Positions 10,260-64,000 of a DNA stretch of 64,000 nt are shown one piece after another. Position 1 is the stretch's first letter. Each line of letters opens with the position of its first letter. Position numbers and translations under genes: made by a program. The stretch spans positions 1-64,000 of the forward strand of contig JAKASQ010000002.1 in the NCBI GenBank assembly GCA_021828195.1, read 5' to 3'. This stretch comes from Thermoplasmata archaeon. Lineage in GTDB: Archaea > Thermoplasmatota > Thermoplasmata > Lutacidiplasmatales > UBA184. Under the pieces are notes generated by a model, which saw nothing but the letters and a program-made list of their open reading frames with translations, searched no databases and was not told the DNA's origin.

Positions 10260-10646
10260 ATGGCGCGGAGCAGCTGGATAGGCGTACTCGCCGCGTTGGG
10301 CGGGATACTCATCGTCGTGGGAGGGTTCCTAGGGTTCTTTCTCAGCCTCCTCCCGAGCGGCTACGCTGCCCAGTACTCCCTGGGGACGTCGGTCGCGGTA
10401 GCGATCGTCGCCGTCCTCCTCGGGGTCGCCACTCTGATCTTCTCGGGCTATACACGCTACCGGCGAGTGGGGGAAGGCATGGCGGGGGCCCTCGCGTTTC
10501 TGATCCTCGGGGCAATCACGTGGGTGATCGCGGGAGGATGGCTCCTCGTGGTGATCGGCTCGTTCCTGACCATCCTGGCGGGTCTAATCCTCTTGGTCGT
10601 GATCCTCCGGCGCGGGCCCAATGGGCGAAGGTCCGGTCCATCCTGA
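10260..10646 (+). CDS. small four-helix membrane protein
   Basis: A 128-aa hydrophobic protein with four predicted membrane helices: WIGVLAALGGILIVVGGFLG, SVAVAIVAVLLGVATLIF, GALAFLILGAITWVIAGG and the segment around VIGSFLTILAGLILLVVIL, ending in a short basic tail. No catalytic motif or family signature is recognised. It is a single gene between divergent or convergent neighbours. Function unknown. Confidence 0.7.
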   Translation: MARSSWIGVLAALGGILIVVGGFLGFFLSLLPSGYAAQYSLGTSVAVAIVAVLLGVATLIFSGYTRYRRVGEGMAGALAFLILGAITWVIAGGWLLVVIGSFLTILAGLILLVVILRRGPNGRRSGPS

Positions 10647-10762
10647 CATCGCGCGCGATCTCTCGCAGCGCCGTAACTTGGCTGGAAACGCTGCGTCAGA
10701 CCGAAACGGCAGGGAGTTCCCATGCTCGCGGCCGGGGCCCCGAGCCTCGGATCGGCACGATC

Positions 10763-11446
10763 CTACGCGCGGCGCTTCTTCTCGAGCATGAGGGCGTAGT
10801 GGTACGGACCTAGATCCCACTCGGCGTTGGTCTCCAGGCCATATCCCTCCAGGGTGCGTCGGGCTTCCGTTGCGGCGAGCCGATGTTCCACCGGTGGACC
10901 TCCCGGGGTTGATTCCTTCTTCCAGTCCACGTCCACGAGGCGACCTCCCGGACGAAGGATCCGTACGGCTTCCGCGACGGTCGCTGGTGGCACGCCGTGG
11001 AGGACGTTGGCCAGGAGGACGCGATCCGCGAGCTCGCCGGGAAGGGGCACGTGATCCGGCCGAGAGACCAGAGCTTCGATATTGGATCGGTGCCGTTCGG
11101 CCGCCCGCTCCCGGATCAGGTCGATCAGCTCTTGGGAGACATCGACGGCGTAGACCCGACCGGTCGGCCCGACGCGTTCGCTCGCCGGAAAAGTGTAGAA
11201 TCCTGAGCCGGCGCCCACGTCGACGACCGTCATGCCGGGTTGAAGACCGACCCGGCTCCATAGGTTCCGTGCATCCTCCGACCGGTGGCGATCGGGACTC
11301 TCCAGAACGGCACTCGCACGTTCTCGCGTCCAGACCTCCTCGTGCATCTTCCGATGATCCGTATGATGGTGAGACTTCGGACGATGCTCGGGGTGCCGGG
11401 CGGGCACCTCGGCCCGGCGATCGCGGTTACGCTTCTGCGGAGGCAT
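10763..11446 (-). CDS. class I SAM-dependent methyltransferase
   Basis: A 227-aa methyltransferase of the UbiE/Methyltransf_11 type: motif I TVVDVGAGSGFYTFP, an acidic motif II residue (VYAVDVS), motif post-I around ADRVLLANVLHGV and RILRPGGRLVDVDW. Substrate unknown. From this start the N-terminus is rich in His (PEHRPKSHHHTDHRK), and the gene overlaps the end of the DUF302 gene by 20 nt; an ATG at 11347 would remove the His-rich stretch and give a 194-aa protein. Both starts are possible. It sits in a minus-strand run with DUF302 and OsmC genes, a set often seen in stress or detoxification contexts. Confidence 0.8.
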   Translation of the reverse strand: MPPQKRNRDRRAEVPARHPEHRPKSHHHTDHRKMHEEVWTRERASAVLESPDRHRSEDARNLWSRVGLQPGMTVVDVGAGSGFYTFPASERVGPTGRVYAVDVSQELIDLIRERAAERHRSNIEALVSRPDHVPLPGELADRVLLANVLHGVPPATVAEAVRILRPGGRLVDVDWKKESTPGGPPVEHRLAATEARRTLEGYGLETNAEWDLGPYHYALMLEKKRRA

Positions 11447-11825
11447 CCACGGCTTCCTTCAGGCTCTGCTCAATCTCCGCTCCCATGCGCTCGAGCTTGG
11501 GCCGCGGCAGGAACGCGCCGATCAGGCTCGTCGGTCGTTGAAGGGTGATTCGCGTTCGGCCCTGTTCGGAGGAGACCTCCAGCTTACACGGGAGGAGGAT
11601 CGCCACTTCGCGGCTCACGCTGAGCGCGGCGAGGGCATGCCTCGGGGAACAGACGTCGAGCAGAACGATCGGCTCGATTACGGCCTCGGTCTTCTCCAGG
11701 AGGATGTCGTGAACGCGGACGGTGGAGAGGATGCCGAACCCGCGTCGCTTCAGCTCGGCTCCGAGACGGGCGACGGCCTCCTCCACTCCTTCCGTGGAGA
11801 ATCGTTCGTACGTCGAACTCTCCAT
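11427..11825 (-). CDS. DUF302 domain protein
   Basis: A 132-aa protein with the DUF302 pattern: an N-terminal VEEAVARLGAELKRRGFGIL helix-strand, the central VLLDVCSPRHALAAL segment with a conserved Cys and the LPCKLEV strand. Structures of this family show an alpha/beta fold often linked to sulfur or redox genes; no enzymatic role is established. It lies between an OsmC-family peroxide-stress gene and a methyltransferase on the same strand, which supports a redox or detoxification setting. Confidence 0.8.
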   Translation of the reverse strand: MESSTYERFSTEGVEEAVARLGAELKRRGFGILSTVRVHDILLEKTEAVIEPIVLLDVCSPRHALAALSVSREVAILLPCKLEVSSEQGRTRITLQRPTSLIGAFLPRPKLERMGAEIEQSLKEAVDASAEA

Positions 11826-11853
11826 GGTGATCCCCTACCTCCTGCGCGATCTC

Positions 11854-12381
11854 TTACCCGCGCGGATGAGCTCCCGGGCGAAGGGCCGGCTGAGAGTTTA
11901 TCGGTTCGCTCGCAACGAGGTCCGCCGGTGAAGGCGCCGCCTCGCGAACGGCGCTCCCGAGCGAAGGTGCGAGCACCCGAGCGACCACTTGAACGGGGAC
12001 GTGCGCTTGCTCGAAGAGGACACCTACGGGGCAGATCCGGAGCGTCACCCTTAGTGTCGTCTCCACCTCCTCGCTCGACGCTTCGGTCCGAACTTCAAGG
12101 GTGCCCGCGACCCGCTGGATGGTCGGAGCTCCCTTCGGTCGCTCGGCCCTCAACGCAACTCGCATGTCGACGAAGCGTAACTTCCGCCTCTGGGCTACGA
12201 GCCCGAAGATCGTCGTAATGCATCCGGCGAGGGAGAGCACCATCAACTCGAGCGATGAGGTGCCGGCATCCGTCCCATCTTCATCGGACGGTAGGTCGAC
12301 GGTCACATGGTGACCGCGTCCGTCGTCCAGCCGGGTCCTGAAGCCGCCCTCCCAGGCTCCGTGCGCTTCCATACCTACCAT
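11854..12381 (-). CDS. OsmC/Ohr-family protein
   Basis: A 175-aa OsmC-like protein. The two reactive cysteines of the family are present, one in SLAGCITTIF and one in RICPVGVLF; in characterised members they reduce organic hydroperoxides. The beta-rich N-terminal half (WEGGFRTRLDDGRGHHVTV) and the central helix before the first Cys also fit. The last 30 or so residues (SPADLVASEPINSQ onward) extend past the usual domain. First gene of a minus-strand run with DUF302 and a methyltransferase, consistent with an oxidative-stress cluster. Confidence 0.85.
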   Translation of the reverse strand: MVGMEAHGAWEGGFRTRLDDGRGHHVTVDLPSDEDGTDAGTSSLELMVLSLAGCITTIFGLVAQRRKLRFVDMRVALRAERPKGAPTIQRVAGTLEVRTEASSEEVETTLRVTLRICPVGVLFEQAHVPVQVVARVLAPSLGSAVREAAPSPADLVASEPINSQPALRPGAHPRG

Positions 12382-59902: not shown

Positions 59903-61468
59903 GTGGCGAGTGGCAACGTGCTGTTCTTCGGAGACAACCTTCCGATCCTTCGGAAGCCGGAGTACTTTCCGCCGGCGTCGGTTGACCTGATCTACCTCGA
60001 CCCGCCGTTTAGTTCGGGTCGGAACTACAACGTCCTGTTCACCGAGACGAACGGGAAGGACTCCGGGGCGCAGAAGGAGGCATTCACAGATACCTGGCAT
60101 TGGGACATGGCGGCGGCATCCGCCTTCGCAGACGCGGTCGAAACGGGCGGTCCCCGAGTCGCGGCGGTGATGGACGCGTTCAAGCGAATCCTCCACGAGT
60201 CCGACACAATGGCCTACCTCTCGATGATGGCCCCTCGCCTTGTGGCGCTCCGCGGGGTGCTGAAACCGAGTGGGTCAATCTATCTTCATTGCGATCCGAC
60301 GGCGAGCCACCACCTCAAGATTCTGATGGACTCGATCTTTGGACCCGAGTGTTTCCGGAACGAGATCATCTGGAGCTACCGTCGGTGGCCGACCCCGACC
60401 AAGTTCTATCAACGGATGCACGACGTAATTCTGTTCTACGCGGCCGACGCGGACGGGCCGGGAACCTTCAACGTCGAGTACGAGCCGAACAGCCCGAGCT
60501 ATGTCAAGAGATTCAAGGGGAAGACGCAGATGCTCGACCCCGAGACGAAGACCCGTAAGATCACATTGGAGGCCAAGTCTAGGGGGATGCCACGCCGCGA
60601 CGTATGGGACCTGTCGATCATCGCCGGCTTCAAGAAGGAACGGCTCGGCTACCCTACGCAGAAGCCCGAGACGCTGCTGGAGCGAATCATCTGCACGAGC
60701 AGCAAGAAGGGCGACGTGGTCCTCGATCCGTTCTGCGGTTGCGGCACGACGATTGCGGTGGCGCAGGCCCTCGGTCGGCGGTGGCTCGGAATCGACATCA
60801 CCTACCTTGCCATCGGACTCGTGGAGCGGCGGCTGAAGCATGCCTTTGGCGCCGACGTTGCGAAGGGATGGACGGTCGTCGGCCAGCCAGTGACGGTCAA
60901 AGAGGCGGATGCTCTGGCTCATCGGGACCGCTACCAGTTCCAGTGGTGGGTCCTCGACAAACTCGATGCGTGGCCCCGGGACAACGTGAAGAAGAAGGGG
61001 GCCGACCAAGGAGTAGACGGAGTCATCAACTTCCAGGAGTCGCCGAACAACCCCGTTCGGACCATCCTGATACAAGCCAAGTCTGGTGGGGTTCATCGAA
61101 GCGACGTGGCGACTCTGTCAGGAGACATGGGGCGGGAGGGTGCCGTGATCGGGGCGCTGGTGACCTTGGAGCCGACTACCGACGATATGCGAAGGGAGGC
61201 TGCCAGCGCGGGGTTCTACACCCCGGAGGACCCCATCGGAGCGGGGCGCCCGAGATACCCGGCAATCCAGCTTCTGACGATTGCCGACATTCTTGAAGGC
61301 GGCAAGCGAATCGAGTTCCCGGAGAAGGGGAACGTTACCTTCCGTAAGGCGCCAGTAGCACAGAAACGTCCATCGGGCCGGCTACGGCCATTGACCGAGG
61401 ACGGAGAAGGGGACGAGGACGACGGTGATCCCTTACCACCCGAAAATGAACAGGAGGAATCCGGATGA
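59903..61468 (+). CDS. site-specific DNA methyltransferase fused to an Mrr-like nuclease domain
   Basis: A 521-aa protein. The N-terminal 320 residues are a beta-class amino-methyltransferase: motif IV DPPF (33-36) precedes motif I DPFCGCGTT (275-283), and the family start YLDPPFSSGRNYNVLF is clear. The C-terminal part (about 345-470) has GADQGVDGVI (366-375) followed by ILIQAKSGG (388-396), the D...(Q)xK pattern of Mrr-type PD-(D/E)XK nucleases, then LVTLEPTTDDMRREAASAGFY. So modification and a restriction-like domain sit in one chain. Acidic low-complexity tail. GTG start with a GGAGG site. Probably a modification-dependent or self-contained restriction enzyme. It converges with the kinase operon. 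Confidence 0.85.
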   Translation: MASGNVLFFGDNLPILRKPEYFPPASVDLIYLDPPFSSGRNYNVLFTETNGKDSGAQKEAFTDTWHWDMAAASAFADAVETGGPRVAAVMDAFKRILHESDTMAYLSMMAPRLVALRGVLKPSGSIYLHCDPTASHHLKILMDSIFGPECFRNEIIWSYRRWPTPTKFYQRMHDVILFYAADADGPGTFNVEYEPNSPSYVKRFKGKTQMLDPETKTRKITLEAKSRGMPRRDVWDLSIIAGFKKERLGYPTQKPETLLERIICTSSKKGDVVLDPFCGCGTTIAVAQALGRRWLGIDITYLAIGLVERRLKHAFGADVAKGWTVVGQPVTVKEADALAHRDRYQFQWWVLDKLDAWPRDNVKKKGADQGVDGVINFQESPNNPVRTILIQAKSGGVHRSDVATLSGDMGREGAVIGALVTLEPTTDDMRREAASAGFYTPEDPIGAGRPRYPAIQLLTIADILEGGKRIEFPEKGNVTFRKAPVAQKRPSGRLRPLTEDGEGDEDDGDPLPPENEQEESG

Positions 61469-61700: not shown

Positions 61701-62420
61701 CTAGCGGATGCGGGGCAACGGAATGGAACTTGGCGACGTGGTCGCGCGAACGAACCTTGACAAGGCGAAGAGATAGTGACTGAGGGACCCGGGGGCCGAT
61801 CTCTTAGGTCGTACTAGTACGCGCAGGCTGCCTGCCTGAGGGTCGAAGATCAGAACTCCAACGTTGTACGCCCTGAACTGGCCGAGCCGACGCATGATCA
61901 GCCTTGATGCCTCCTTCGGCAGCACAATGGCCACGCTATGCGCGAACGCACGGTACTGTAGCGCCTGGTACATTCCATGCCTCCAGTCCTTGAGCTTCAG
62001 TTCGTAGGCCCACAACTCTATGTCGGACTCCCGAATGGGGCGAAGCAATCGTACTCCACCAGAGGGGTTTCCCCAAGTAACCCCACACGACGCCAATCGT
62101 GCCAGTATCCCACGGACTGTTCTTGGTGCAAGGTCGGACTTTCTAGCAATATCCTCGACTGAGGTGAGGCGTCTTGGGTCAAGCGCCGCGACTACGCTTG
62201 CTGCGGCCGGAGTAGTGATTGAGGATGCCAATCGGATGGCCCAATCCAATCTTGGACCGGAGAGAGAGGTGGGGGTCAAGACAAAATCGGCGATACCATC
62301 CTTTGCGGTCAGTTCGGTGACCCAATTGCTGATTGTTCTGCTGTGGATACGAAGCTTGCCGCTGTCCAGTGCTTTGTCGAACAGCCGTGACATCGTAGCT
62401 TCGGAGAGGCTAGCACTCAT
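61701..62420 (-). CDS. PD-(D/E)XK nuclease-like protein with inserted HTH domain
   Basis: A 239-aa protein. DGIADFVLTP (D45) and WAYELKLKDWRHGMYQALQ (E140-x-K142) form the D...ExK active-site pattern of restriction-like nucleases. Between them lies a winged-helix segment (LTSVEDIARKSDLAPRTVRGILARL, residues 86-109, given in part), so a DNA-binding domain seems inserted into the nuclease fold. The stretch YQALQYRAFAHSVAIVLP after ExK fits the helix-strand end of the fold. Its ATG overlaps the stop of the 396-aa gene (ATGA). Likely the effector or DNA-binding part of a three-gene system with the kinase. Confidence 0.65.
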   Translation of the reverse strand: MSASLSEATMSRLFDKALDSGKLRIHSRTISNWVTELTAKDGIADFVLTPTSLSGPRLDWAIRLASSITTPAAASVVAALDPRRLTSVEDIARKSDLAPRTVRGILARLASCGVTWGNPSGGVRLLRPIRESDIELWAYELKLKDWRHGMYQALQYRAFAHSVAIVLPKEASRLIMRRLGQFRAYNVGVLIFDPQAGSLRVLVRPKRSAPGSLSHYLFALSRFVRATTSPSSIPLPRIR

Positions 62421-63607
62421 CGCAAACCTACCTCTGCCCGGAACCTCTTAACGGCTCGCTGCCACATCGTTACTTCTCGGGGTCCCGTCATTGGCTCGAA
62501 CGTAACTCCGGCCGACCCTAGGTCACTGTAAGTCGCCTGTGCAACTTTCAGTAGTCCCTCCAAAGCGGTCAATCGCTCGGCGACCTTCTTGTCGGCCGTG
62601 ACCGTCTTGCCGATGTTGGAGAGAACTTTCCAATGGTGAAGGCAGGAGGCCTTCCGCGGCCAGTCCGCCTTGAGAGGATCGTTACCCATCTCCGTGTCAT
62701 AACCGGTGACGGAGATGACATCCGCCAACTTCCCTGCCTGTGCAATCTGATACATTTCAGGATTTACGAAGATGGAGTTCATCAACTGACGGGATGTGTA
62801 CCTCGGCCTTGGTGACCTTCCCCCGGTGGTCGGCATAAATCTGGCGAGAGAGAATTGCCTTAGATTGGAGTACCACCCGGAGCAAATGGCTTCGGCGCCC
62901 GCCGCGAGGAGAAGGGCACCGACGATATCTGTGTAACCGTGGACAACCTCGAATGAATTGCGATTCCCAAGGACGTACGTCAGGTACATCAGATTCACAA
63001 GCACGTCTTCCTCGTAGGACGCAGGATAGCTTGGATCGTTTCGCCGGACACACAGGTAGAATCCCTTGGCATCCAGCGTGGAGATAGCATCCAGGTACTC
63101 GTCTAATGATGCCCGATCTCGGAGTGCCTGTTCATCCAGCGCGAGGGAAATCAAGAGAGGCTTTCCGCTCTTCTTAGATTTCCACTCAGCTATACTCGCT
63201 TGGGCCAGTAAGAGCGCGACTTGGCTTAGGGGATCGTTGAAACTGTTGAACAACACCGTAGGTGACACCCACCGGTCAACGTCGAGACTTGACTGGAACT
63301 GAAGGACTTGTTTGGCGTATCTCCGGACTTCTACCGCGTCGAAGCTGGCTCGGGTCAGGGACCGGGTGTAATAGTCATACAGCGGCAGGTTGCCATCTCT
63401 CGCACCCGAGATCATTGTGACGTAGAACTGAGGGTCCACCATGGACACTCCATGTCGGCCAAACCCCCTCTTGAGACCCGAGGCGTACGAGGCAAGCGCA
63501 CCCGGTTCGTCGTCCCTCGGGCTCAACACGGCGCCGGAGAGACTACCATCGTTGGCGCCATCCTCGACATAACCGCCCTTGCCCCATCCGACTTGGGCAA
63601 ATATCAT
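62417..63607 (-). CDS. unknown 396-aa protein between kinase and nuclease genes
   Basis: No family recognised. Strand-helix alternation is clear (KPLLISLALDEQALRDRA, LDAKGFYLCVRRNDPSYP, VNLMYLTYVLG, FEVVHGYTDIVGALLLAAGA), which suggests an alpha/beta barrel. AEAICSGWYSNLRQFSLARF and the Arg-rich FMPTTGGRSPRPRYTSRQLM are the most distinctive parts. Both ends are ATGA-coupled: its ATG overlaps the kinase stop and its stop overlaps the nuclease ATG. Base composition is visibly less GC-rich than the core genome. Could be a sensor or nucleotide-handling enzyme in a defence system; that is inference from position. Confidence 0.65.
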   Translation of the reverse strand: MIFAQVGWGKGGYVEDGANDGSLSGAVLSPRDDEPGALASYASGLKRGFGRHGVSMVDPQFYVTMISGARDGNLPLYDYYTRSLTRASFDAVEVRRYAKQVLQFQSSLDVDRWVSPTVLFNSFNDPLSQVALLLAQASIAEWKSKKSGKPLLISLALDEQALRDRASLDEYLDAISTLDAKGFYLCVRRNDPSYPASYEEDVLVNLMYLTYVLGNRNSFEVVHGYTDIVGALLLAAGAEAICSGWYSNLRQFSLARFMPTTGGRSPRPRYTSRQLMNSIFVNPEMYQIAQAGKLADVISVTGYDTEMGNDPLKADWPRKASCLHHWKVLSNIGKTVTADKKVAERLTALEGLLKVAQATYSDLGSAGVTFEPMTGPREVTMWQRAVKRFRAEVGLR

Positions 63608-64000
63608 CCCAAGACTCCAACCGAGGTGGACATTGGGCGCAGTTCATCTTGGAGTTTCGAACATGTCCTGTACCGAAGATGTGGTTGTTTCTCCAACAGG
63701 CGCATAATGACGTCGCTGAGTTCCTCAGGGAAACCCGCCCGCACCTGACATGGGTCCTTCGGTCTCTCAGATTGGATGCCGATGATGGTATCCGTGCTCG
63801 ACATTCCGTTCCGATAGTACGGGTGTTTGCCGGTAGCGGCCTCGTACATTGTCACCCCGAGAGAGTACATGTCCGACCGGAAGTCCATGCTGCGTTTCTT
63901 TGGAGTGTCGAGTTGCTCCGGGGACAGGTAGGGCAGAGTGCCGACTGCAAGTCCTGGCGCGGTTAGAGACACGTCCCCGAGATCGAGAGCCATCCCCATA
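63604..64000 (-). CDS. Ser/Thr protein kinase, C-terminal part (gene runs off the window)
   Basis: The last 130 or so residues of a eukaryotic-like kinase. Seen are the DFG-equivalent (LDLGDVSLTAPG), the activation-loop end GTLPYLSPEQLDTPK (APE position), subdomain IX FRSDMYSLGVTMYEAATG and the subdomain XI Arg (KQPHLRYRTCSKLQDEL). The N-lobe and catalytic loop lie beyond position 64000, so the ATG at 63999 is not the real start. The protein ends right after the kinase fold without extra domains. First known gene of the ATGA-coupled operon with the unknown 396-aa protein and the nuclease. Confidence 0.85.
   Translation of the reverse strand, partial: MGMALDLGDVSLTAPGLAVGTLPYLSPEQLDTPKKRSMDFRSDMYSLGVTMYEAATGKHPYYRNGMSSTDTIIGIQSERPKDPCQVRAGFPEELSDVIMRLLEKQPHLRYRTCSKLQDELRPMSTSVGVLG

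Follow-up and report, generated by a model that had tools for sequence, protein, structure and literature searches.

A mobile gene trio with a TGT-like barrel, a PD-(D/E)XK-type protein and an exchangeable effector as a candidate anti-invader system in a Thermoplasmata archaeon

What do three tightly linked genes at the end of a 64,000-nucleotide stretch of Thermoplasmata archaeon DNA (assembly GCA_021828195.1, contig JAKASQ010000002.1, positions 1 to 64,000; the window) do, and could they form an undescribed defence system, as an earlier note proposed from the letters alone? The note had described a minus-strand operon for a Ser/Thr kinase, a 396-amino-acid (aa) protein of no recognisable family and a nuclease-like protein, here called NUC. 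The reading frames and the two ATGA overlaps (kinase gene/396-aa gene and 396-aa gene/NUC gene) are as it described, and the operon reads as follows, TGT standing for tRNA-guanine transglycosylase:

61701..62420, minus strand: NUC, a 239-aa protein predicted to be of PD-(D/E)XK type, with an inserted MarR-like winged helix (open reading frame, motifs, AlphaFold2 model)
62417..63607, minus strand: TGT-like, a 396-aa predicted TIM-barrel protein (open reading frame, AlphaFold2 model, Foldseek)
63604..64542, minus strand: KIN, a Ser/Thr protein kinase of 312 aa, whose C-terminal 131 aa lie within the window at 63604-63999 (PF00069)
64543-64827, beyond the window, heading the operon: AbrB/MazE-like gene, 94 aa (PF04014, MazE_antitoxin)

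The contig extends past 64000 (442,608 bp in all), and reading on, as had been suggested, completes the kinase and adds the 94-aa gene, which abuts the kinase gene upstream with zero gap and matches PF04014 with E 5.9e-6 (26.6 bits, cut-off 24.7). The three genes of the proposed operon are thus joined by at least a fourth, giving the order AbrB/MazE-like, kinase, barrel and NUC. The genome also has A-type ATPase genes, as expected of an archaeal host.

Our answer, to which we assign a probability of roughly 55%, is that the trio is a mobile system directed against invaders such as phages and plasmids, probably consisting of a two-protein core (barrel and NUC) and an exchangeable effector. It starts from what can be observed, namely the association of the genes, their predicted folds and motifs, the exchange of the effector gene and the mobility of the unit. 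A defence role is supported by this mobility, by restriction genes nearby and by the effector-like nature of the swapped domains.

Recurrence of the trio was examined with a hand-designed, degenerate pattern for the nuclease motif (ExKLx[DN]W..[GA]..QA), applied at the DNA level, which finds only NUC proteins near that motif. It matched five stretches in viral contigs and at least 118 in genome contigs; the resulting 123 listed loci are a lower bound, as more exist. Profiles built only from the window and five plasmid sequences were run over all 123 and placed NUC, barrel and kinase together in one stretch in 80 loci, NUC with barrel in 18, NUC with kinase in three and NUC alone in 22 (98 loci with barrel), and many loci that show no kinase or no barrel are truncated at a locus end. 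The trio thus does co-occur elsewhere, as the earlier note had required of a genuine system, and since the loci were picked by the nuclease motif alone, yet most hold barrel and kinase, the association was not selected for. The loci were not deduplicated: three pairs with identical scores (L018/L038, L032/L097 and L122/L123) each appear to be one sequence listed twice, and near-identity is also seen among some loci from Prevotellaceae and Bacteroidales. Widening the barrel profile with members from the pattern loci brought the number with a barrel to 104 of 123, 80 of these with a kinase; the six loci gained are L044, L119 and L131, which are in the profile and match by construction, L088 and L113, which are of the SIR2 type described below, and L106.

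Loci with the barrel come from Pseudomonadota, Bacteroidota, Verrucomicrobia, Planctomycetes, Chloroflexi, Bacillota, Actinomycetota, Patescibacteria-type groups, Myxococcota, Bipolaricaulota, Hydrogenedentes, SAR324 and Methanosarcinaceae, among others, many being metagenome-assembled genomes; four of the five viral-contig matches also hold NUC and barrel. The commonest architecture among the 80 full-trio loci is kinase-barrel with a convergent nuclease gene (52), followed by nuclease-kinase-barrel (10) and kinase-barrel-nuclease (9), and kinase and barrel are fused in the others, with a same-strand nuclease gene in eight and a convergent one in one. In convergent barrel/nuclease pairs from distant phyla (L017-L139), the genes overlap at their 3' ends in 59 of 67 cases, which could reflect antisense or mutual-exclusion control.

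Plasmids carry the trio as well. A tblastn search of 72,556 plasmid records with the window barrel and its relatives found four (Natribaculum breve, Priestia megaterium, Polaromonas naphthalenivorans and Gordonia bronchialis), the Priestia barrel being a weak match to the window query alone (E 0.06). Kinase and NUC genes adjoin the barrel gene on three of the four, and the Priestia kinase and barrel form one 677-aa protein; on the Gordonia plasmid neither partner was recognised. There, a distant barrel relative (L008, 9040-10248) lies beside an annotated phosphotransferase and, by eye, a nucleotidyltransferase-like gene (10505-12249). Searching from the NUC side yielded seven further plasmids, of which those from Arthrobacter and Kocuria have kinase plus barrel, so that five plasmids in all carry the trio. 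A blastn search of E. coli genomes with 1,400 bp of the Acerihabitans locus, which would detect DNA similarity only, gave no match.

The effector position is where the loci differ. In SIR2-type operons (L044, L053, L088, L119 and L131), a gene for 190-215 aa is followed by nuclease and barrel genes and then by one for a 370-600-aa protein; two of the three scanned proteins of this last kind match SIR2_2 (E 2.5e-5 and 3.6e-10), and that of L053 matches no Pfam family at 0.01. L113 holds the first three genes of such an operon and is then cut. The 190-215-aa gene, which looks Panacea-like by eye only, gave no Pfam match for the one protein scanned. A PIN gene is present in six loci, all from Patescibacteria-type groups but for one bacterium, with the barrel in view in L029, L098 and L110 and the barrel side beyond the locus end in L042, L060 and L104; both scanned PIN proteins match PIN_3. 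Four of the SIR2-type loci went into the SIR2 profile and five of the PIN loci into the PIN profile, so that each profile added just one locus. Profile-profile comparison of the barrels gave E-values of 4e-22 (kinase-type with PIN-type), 8e-16 (kinase-type with SIR2-type) and 1.5e-14 (SIR2-type with PIN-type), which indicates that the barrels of all three effector types are one family. Because a SIR2-domain or PIN-domain gene replaces the kinase in some loci, barrel and nuclease look like the core. A PP2C phosphatase is found in 11 of the 123 listed loci by profile, and 10 of 149 nearest flanking proteins (drawn from the 98 loci in which the initial profiles detected a barrel) match PP2C_2; the Natribaculum plasmid has a calcineurin-like phosphoesterase gene after the barrel gene.

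The 396-aa protein was modelled with AlphaFold2 from an alignment (A8) of the window protein and 69 relatives that are 14-38% identical to it, giving a predicted local distance difference test score (pLDDT) of 96.0 and a predicted template-modelling score of 0.94. Foldseek against the PDB returned archaeosine TGT (1iq8_A) as the best match, with E 2.7e-5. By our count, TGTs make up 16 of the 30 matches at E ≤ 0.001, the best three included, the others being TIM barrels and similar enzymes. The template-modelling (TM) scores of these TGTs are 0.44-0.52 over the query with a large root-mean-square deviation, so the kinship is remote; in a viral structure library, a phage queuine tRNA-ribosyltransferase ranks third (E 3.4e-3). 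The nearest fold for the model is therefore a (β/α)8 barrel of TGT type. The claim that the protein belongs to no recognisable family stands in so far as Pfam, NCBIfam and PADLOC scans of the 70 members gave no consistent match, just weak single-member ones, and none to PF01702; it gives way where the predicted fold is TGT-like. Searched against PDB sequences, the barrel profile gave no significant match (best E 0.046). Family members diverge too far to be traced by exact peptide patterns, with no block of 7-10 columns sufficiently conserved for an alignment-based search. As a single query, the window protein found no relative in the viral or genome contig collections, nor did the Priestia barrel in viral contigs; in phage records the window barrel had one weak match (E 0.4) and the Natribaculum barrel none. 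The Brig1 glycosylases, considered as possibly sharing the barrel fold, were dropped, as two reports give them a uracil-DNA-glycosylase fold instead (PMC11078745, PMC13160076).

Conserved residues of the barrel lie at or near strand ends: D58 (69/69), P116 (69/70), G244 (67/70), Y270 (67/70) and an N-L-R-x-F-S stretch. The basic and aromatic residues R250, R264, R269 and Y270 are also conserved in sequence, and a weak hhalign alignment places Gln 105, kept in 56 of 70 members, opposite a Gln of TGT. The TGT catalytic pair is D102 and D280 in Z. mobilis numbering. By strand order and motif, not by superposition, D58 at the end of strand 3 is the D102-like Asp, and the column of the presumed nucleophile (D280-like, position 242) holds Ala in 31, Thr in 20, Ser in 14, Cys in 2, Gly in 2 and Val in 1 of the 70 sequences, and Asp in none. 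The barrel thus appears to retain one presumed catalytic Asp and to lack the presumed TGT nucleophile. This loss argues against base exchange, and the retained Asp, together with the basic residues, favours binding or some other chemistry. The zinc site CxCxxC...H is absent from the window barrel and present in eight of the 70 aligned members and in all four SIR2-type proteins; CxCxxC is also visible by eye in the Priestia and Arthrobacter barrels. So far as seen, the protein is not a housekeeping enzyme, as the note had expected of a system component: its own genome encodes a separate TGT elsewhere, and searches of 101 genomes (45 at least 90% complete) and of 292 genomes sampled from the phylum (159 of them at least 90% complete), two overlapping samples, found the barrel in its own genome only.

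Two alternatives to the proposed system assign the barrel another role. The first is a guard of tRNA or translation, in which the barrel would bind the anticodon loop, sense tRNA damage or modification state and set free the kinase, the NADase or the PIN RNase. Anticodons of tRNA are the target of TGTs, PIN RNases commonly cut tRNA or rRNA, archaeosine TGT is the nearest fold, and R250, R264, R269 and Y270, conserved in sequence, could bind a nucleic-acid backbone. The partner that is most constant, however, has a nuclease fold and in most cases carries a DNA-binding winged helix, a combination suggestive of DNA, and none of the 70 aligned members matches a TGT or PUA model of Pfam; we regard such a guard as distinctly improbable. 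The second resembles restriction-modification, with the TGT-like protein altering bases of host DNA, the PD-(D/E)XK protein cutting unaltered DNA and the kinase regulating the switch. Convergent genes, the arrangement of barrel and nuclease in the commonest architecture, occur in some type II restriction-modification pairs. In Dpd systems the TGT-fold DpdA modifies DNA (PMC12839542). The absence of Asp from the presumed nucleophile position in all 70 sequences speaks against this scheme, which would also leave SIR2 or PIN partners unexplained, and no deazaguanine synthesis genes were noticed in the operons, for which no dedicated search was run. We consider it very improbable.

The motif residues of NUC, D45 and E140xK142, lie at the positions claimed and are split by a winged helix; W146 and Q152 complete the set. 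All five (D, E, K, W and Q) are invariant in the six sequences obtained independently of the pattern (one from the window, five from plasmids), and D45 is invariant in 46 of 46 aligned pattern-selected sequences, the window included, in which E140, K142, W146 and Q152 are fixed by the pattern. The AlphaFold2 model (pLDDT 92.8) has a helix at 7-20, strands at 32-39 and 42-49, the winged helix at about 55-125, a strand at 137-141 and a helix at 146-156, an order that agrees with an α-β-β-β-α-β core. By profile, the winged helix matches transcription regulators in the PDB (best E 2.5e-4). It is probably an optional insert, because 34 shorter relatives align without it: wherever their D is visible, the stretch up to ExK holds no winged helix, some being N-terminally cut by the locus end or by trimming, and they keep the D45 equivalent at 90% or more, with E, K, W and Q again fixed by the pattern. 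Four of the 34 match NucS_C weakly (best E 0.011). Motifs and predicted topology fit a PD-(D/E)XK-type protein, a putative nuclease.

NUC relatives are also seen in other surroundings. Two from haloarchaeal plasmids (L010, 4905-5717, and L011, 4974-5738) lie in operons with site-specific DNA methyltransferases. Five from Verrucomicrobia appear solitary (L033, L043, L056, L075 and L125); by eye, that of L056 is near a cytosine-methyltransferase-like gene and that of L125 near an HsdR-like gene.

A further alternative is a toxin-antitoxin or addiction module, in which the kinase, SIR2 or PIN protein would be the toxin and the barrel and/or NUC, whose winged helix would bind the operator, would act as antitoxin and repressor, with defence as a secondary role. 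PIN and SIR2 proteins are common toxins, an AbrB/MazE-like gene heads the operon here, the short gene (about 190-215 aa) heads the SIR2 operons, and the unit is carried by plasmids and a transposon-like element. A mere repressor, on the other hand, would not need catalytic residues that are kept in six of six pattern-free sequences, with D45 in 46 of 46; the 34 relatives that align without a winged helix, and the two core proteins being kept together in 104 of 123 listed loci, also speak against such a module, which we hold to be unlikely.

The first gene of the trio was rightly called a Ser/Thr kinase: it matches PF00069 with E 1.8e-12 for the part in the window and 4.9e-30 over its full length, and keeps the β3 Lys, HRD and DxG motifs. 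Regular expressions applied to 84 kinases, the window's included, found the Lys in 74, HRD in 82 and a DFG-like motif in 73, and inspection by eye of the 17 kinases with at least one miss showed HxD and DxG in every one. The kinase of L112 has Pro at the ATP-binding Lys and is perhaps an inactive copy or an assembly error; that of L074 ends before the Lys. A second kinase match lies further from the core in L134. In PADLOC, the kinase part has numerous matches to PD-T4-6 models, the best with E 1e-24, perhaps owing to no more than the likeness shared by kinases in general.

Mobility is apparent from the surroundings of the operon, which include the following features:

59732 to 66787 of the contig (59732..64000 within the window), no strand: transposon-like island of 7,056 bp (empty site, terminal and direct repeats)
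59903..61468, plus strand: N6/N4 DNA methylase fused to an Mrr-type domain (PF01555, E 4.7e-45; PF04471, Mrr_cat, E 1.6e-6)
right part of the island, next after the AbrB/MazE-like gene: DDE transposase with SWIM finger (PF01609, E 2.1e-28; PF04434, E 1.4e-5)
right part of the island: HEPN-domain gene (PF05168, E 1.5e-6)

The ferredoxin and ABC permease genes that flank the island are about 150 bp apart on one contig of a relative (G001) and about 7.2 kb apart in the archaeon's own genome. Blastn between the two gave blocks of 98.4% (731 bp) and 97.3% (2,494 bp) identity, split by a 7,056 bp insert. The insert is bordered by an 11-bp direct repeat, one copy of which stands just before the left terminal inverted repeat (from 59734), and the empty site in G001 has one copy that differs at two positions. 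The island ends are imperfect inverted repeats, identical at 18 of 26 positions compared with at most 17 in 500 random draws from the island interior; in a scan of the own genome with up to two mismatches, the terminal motif occurs only at the two island ends and a reversed control nowhere. The operon DNA is indeed less GC-rich (guanine plus cytosine), as the earlier note had remarked: the trio genes are at 56-59% and the island's methylase, nuclease, barrel, kinase and AbrB genes at 53-61%, compared with about 64-65% just outside (64-65% for two right-flank genes, 64% for the first 590 bases on the left). Values close to the flank level are seen for two island genes, the transposase (66%) and HEPN (63%) genes. 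With the empty site, the inverted and direct repeats and the GC contrast, the simplest reading is that the trio is cargo of a transposon-like unit that the genome acquired recently, with the resident transposase as putative mover of the whole.

The neighbouring gene does encode the DNA methyltransferase-nuclease that had been named there. It lies in the same island as the trio and is linked to the putative system by association only. Restriction genes recur beside the trio elsewhere: counted without a control set, and with neighbours annotated by profile or by eye, the 149 nearest flanking proteins include five with matches to models of type I methylases and five with matches to specificity-subunit models (by Pfam, five N6_Mtase, four Methylase_S and three phage integrases). 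Several loci lie next to or inside type I operons; the cassette stands between HsdM-like and HsdS-like genes in L028, L078 and L100 and before HsdS-like and HsdR-like genes in L047, the Hsd-like single-gene names being given by reading, and these four look closely related, not independent. The cassette of these four comprises a fused kinase-barrel gene, the nuclease gene and a conserved gene of about 160 aa (L028:6699-7181).

How might such a system work? We infer its activities, direction of signalling, trigger and outcome as follows. The TGT-fold barrel, its presumed nucleophile lost, would most likely bind rather than exchange a base in nucleic acid, and the PD-(D/E)XK protein, usually with its DNA-binding winged helix, would most likely dock on DNA and cut or nick it. 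The two may recognise or process the nucleic acid of an invader, by its altered bases or its replication intermediates, and then set the effector free. This effector, usually the Ser/Thr kinase but in some lineages a PIN RNase or a protein with a SIR2 domain and presumed NADase activity, would stop the cell or the invader. Where present, the PP2C phosphatase could keep the kinase silent. In other effector-swapping systems the constant part holds recognition and the variable part the lethal output; by the same logic, sensing is placed in the core because the core is constant and the effector variable. A more specific version, which we find unlikely, is a plug-in immune platform in which an exchange-dead TGT-fold sensor of unusual bases (7-deazaguanines or other hypermodified phage bases) and a winged-helix PD-(D/E)XK nuclease would fire whichever effector the lineage carries (kinase, SIR2 NADase or PIN RNase). 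If true, this would be a defence that reads the very modification by which phages escape restriction.

Several points weigh against an anti-invader core of this kind. The link between the barrel and TGTs is one of modelled fold (TM-score about 0.5) and motif positions, not of sequence profiles, and hhalign against true TGTs gave probabilities of 0.8-8.6%, with a sensible register and low significance. The PD-(D/E)XK fold proposed for NUC, which holds as far as motif and predicted topology go, found no counterpart in Foldseek at E ≤ 0.001: the best match is AF2093 (2ph7, E 1.1e-3) and the others listed are mostly winged-helix proteins, so the search, dominated by the winged helix, was uninformative on the nuclease core. 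The barrel is missing from 19 of the 123 listed loci, of which three have a PIN gene and two a kinase, some are cut by the locus end and others appear to be solitary nucleases; one of the 104 barrel loci is doubtful, as the gene list of L106 shows no obvious barrel and its match may be false. Five haloarchaeal plasmid relatives of NUC have neither kinase nor barrel in the stretches examined, which together with the solitary nucleases implies that NUC works in other settings too. Enrichment of restriction genes around the cassette, finally, is argued, not measured.

The cassette is widespread, from archaea to Patescibacteria and Bacteroidota, with a core family that Pfam, NCBIfam and PADLOC do not recognise and on which effector classes known from immunity are swapped. 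If it does serve defence, it would add a core architecture and show the TGT fold at work in a role other than the modification of tRNA or DNA. It would also pose two testable questions, namely which ligand the barrel has and by what means a single core can drive effectors as different as a kinase, an NADase and an RNase. The island is in addition a clear case of a 7-kb transposon-like unit that carries restriction and candidate defence genes and has its empty site in a close relative.

Among the matches listed from the openly licensed PubMed Central literature, we found no description of a kinase, a TGT-like barrel and a nuclease combined. Of the known systems with which the trio can be compared, PD-T4-6 is a single-gene kinase system, whereas the trio kinase stands in a different, operonic context. 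Type I restriction-modification (Hsd) is similar in location, with the trio cassette beside or inside Hsd-like operons in several loci, but its components are unrelated to those of the trio and the relation is one of association only. The TGT superfamily (TGT, arcTGT and DpdA; PF01702) provides the best fold match and shares D58, Gln 105 and, in some barrel relatives, CxCxxC...H; the trio barrel differs in lacking Asp at the presumed nucleophile and any Pfam TGT match (70 members) and, in the window, the zinc cysteines, and its partners are effector-like, with no preQ/archaeosine or Dpd genes noticed. DpdB, DpdC and preQ0 genes were not noticed among the island genes or the recurrent flanking families, on which no dedicated Dpd search was run. 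The Dpd 7-deazaguanine and BREX-related capture systems with a TGT resemble the trio by placing a TGT homologue in a DNA-conflict operon (PMC12839542). They differ from it in that no HerA, PglZ, DUF6079, DpdB or DpdC was noticed with the trio, these not being searched one by one, and in the trio barrel's lack of the presumed nucleophile. CapK/CapS and VapK-VapS-VapC likewise set a kinase and a winged-helix DNA-binding protein beside immune genes, with a VapC-like (PIN) variant; these are a GHKL kinase and a STAS-wHTH protein (PMC13373217), in contrast to the Hanks-type kinase, nuclease fold and barrel of the trio. The kinase-kinase-phosphatase system KKP combines two kinases with PP2C, whereas the window island has one kinase and no recognised phosphatase; the trio adds TGT-like and nuclease proteins and has one kinase beside the core, where FHA/cold-shock-type partner domains were not searched for. 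What KKP and the trio share is a Ser/Thr kinase, accompanied by PP2C in 11 trio loci, and the role described for KKP is phage defence (PMC11341870).

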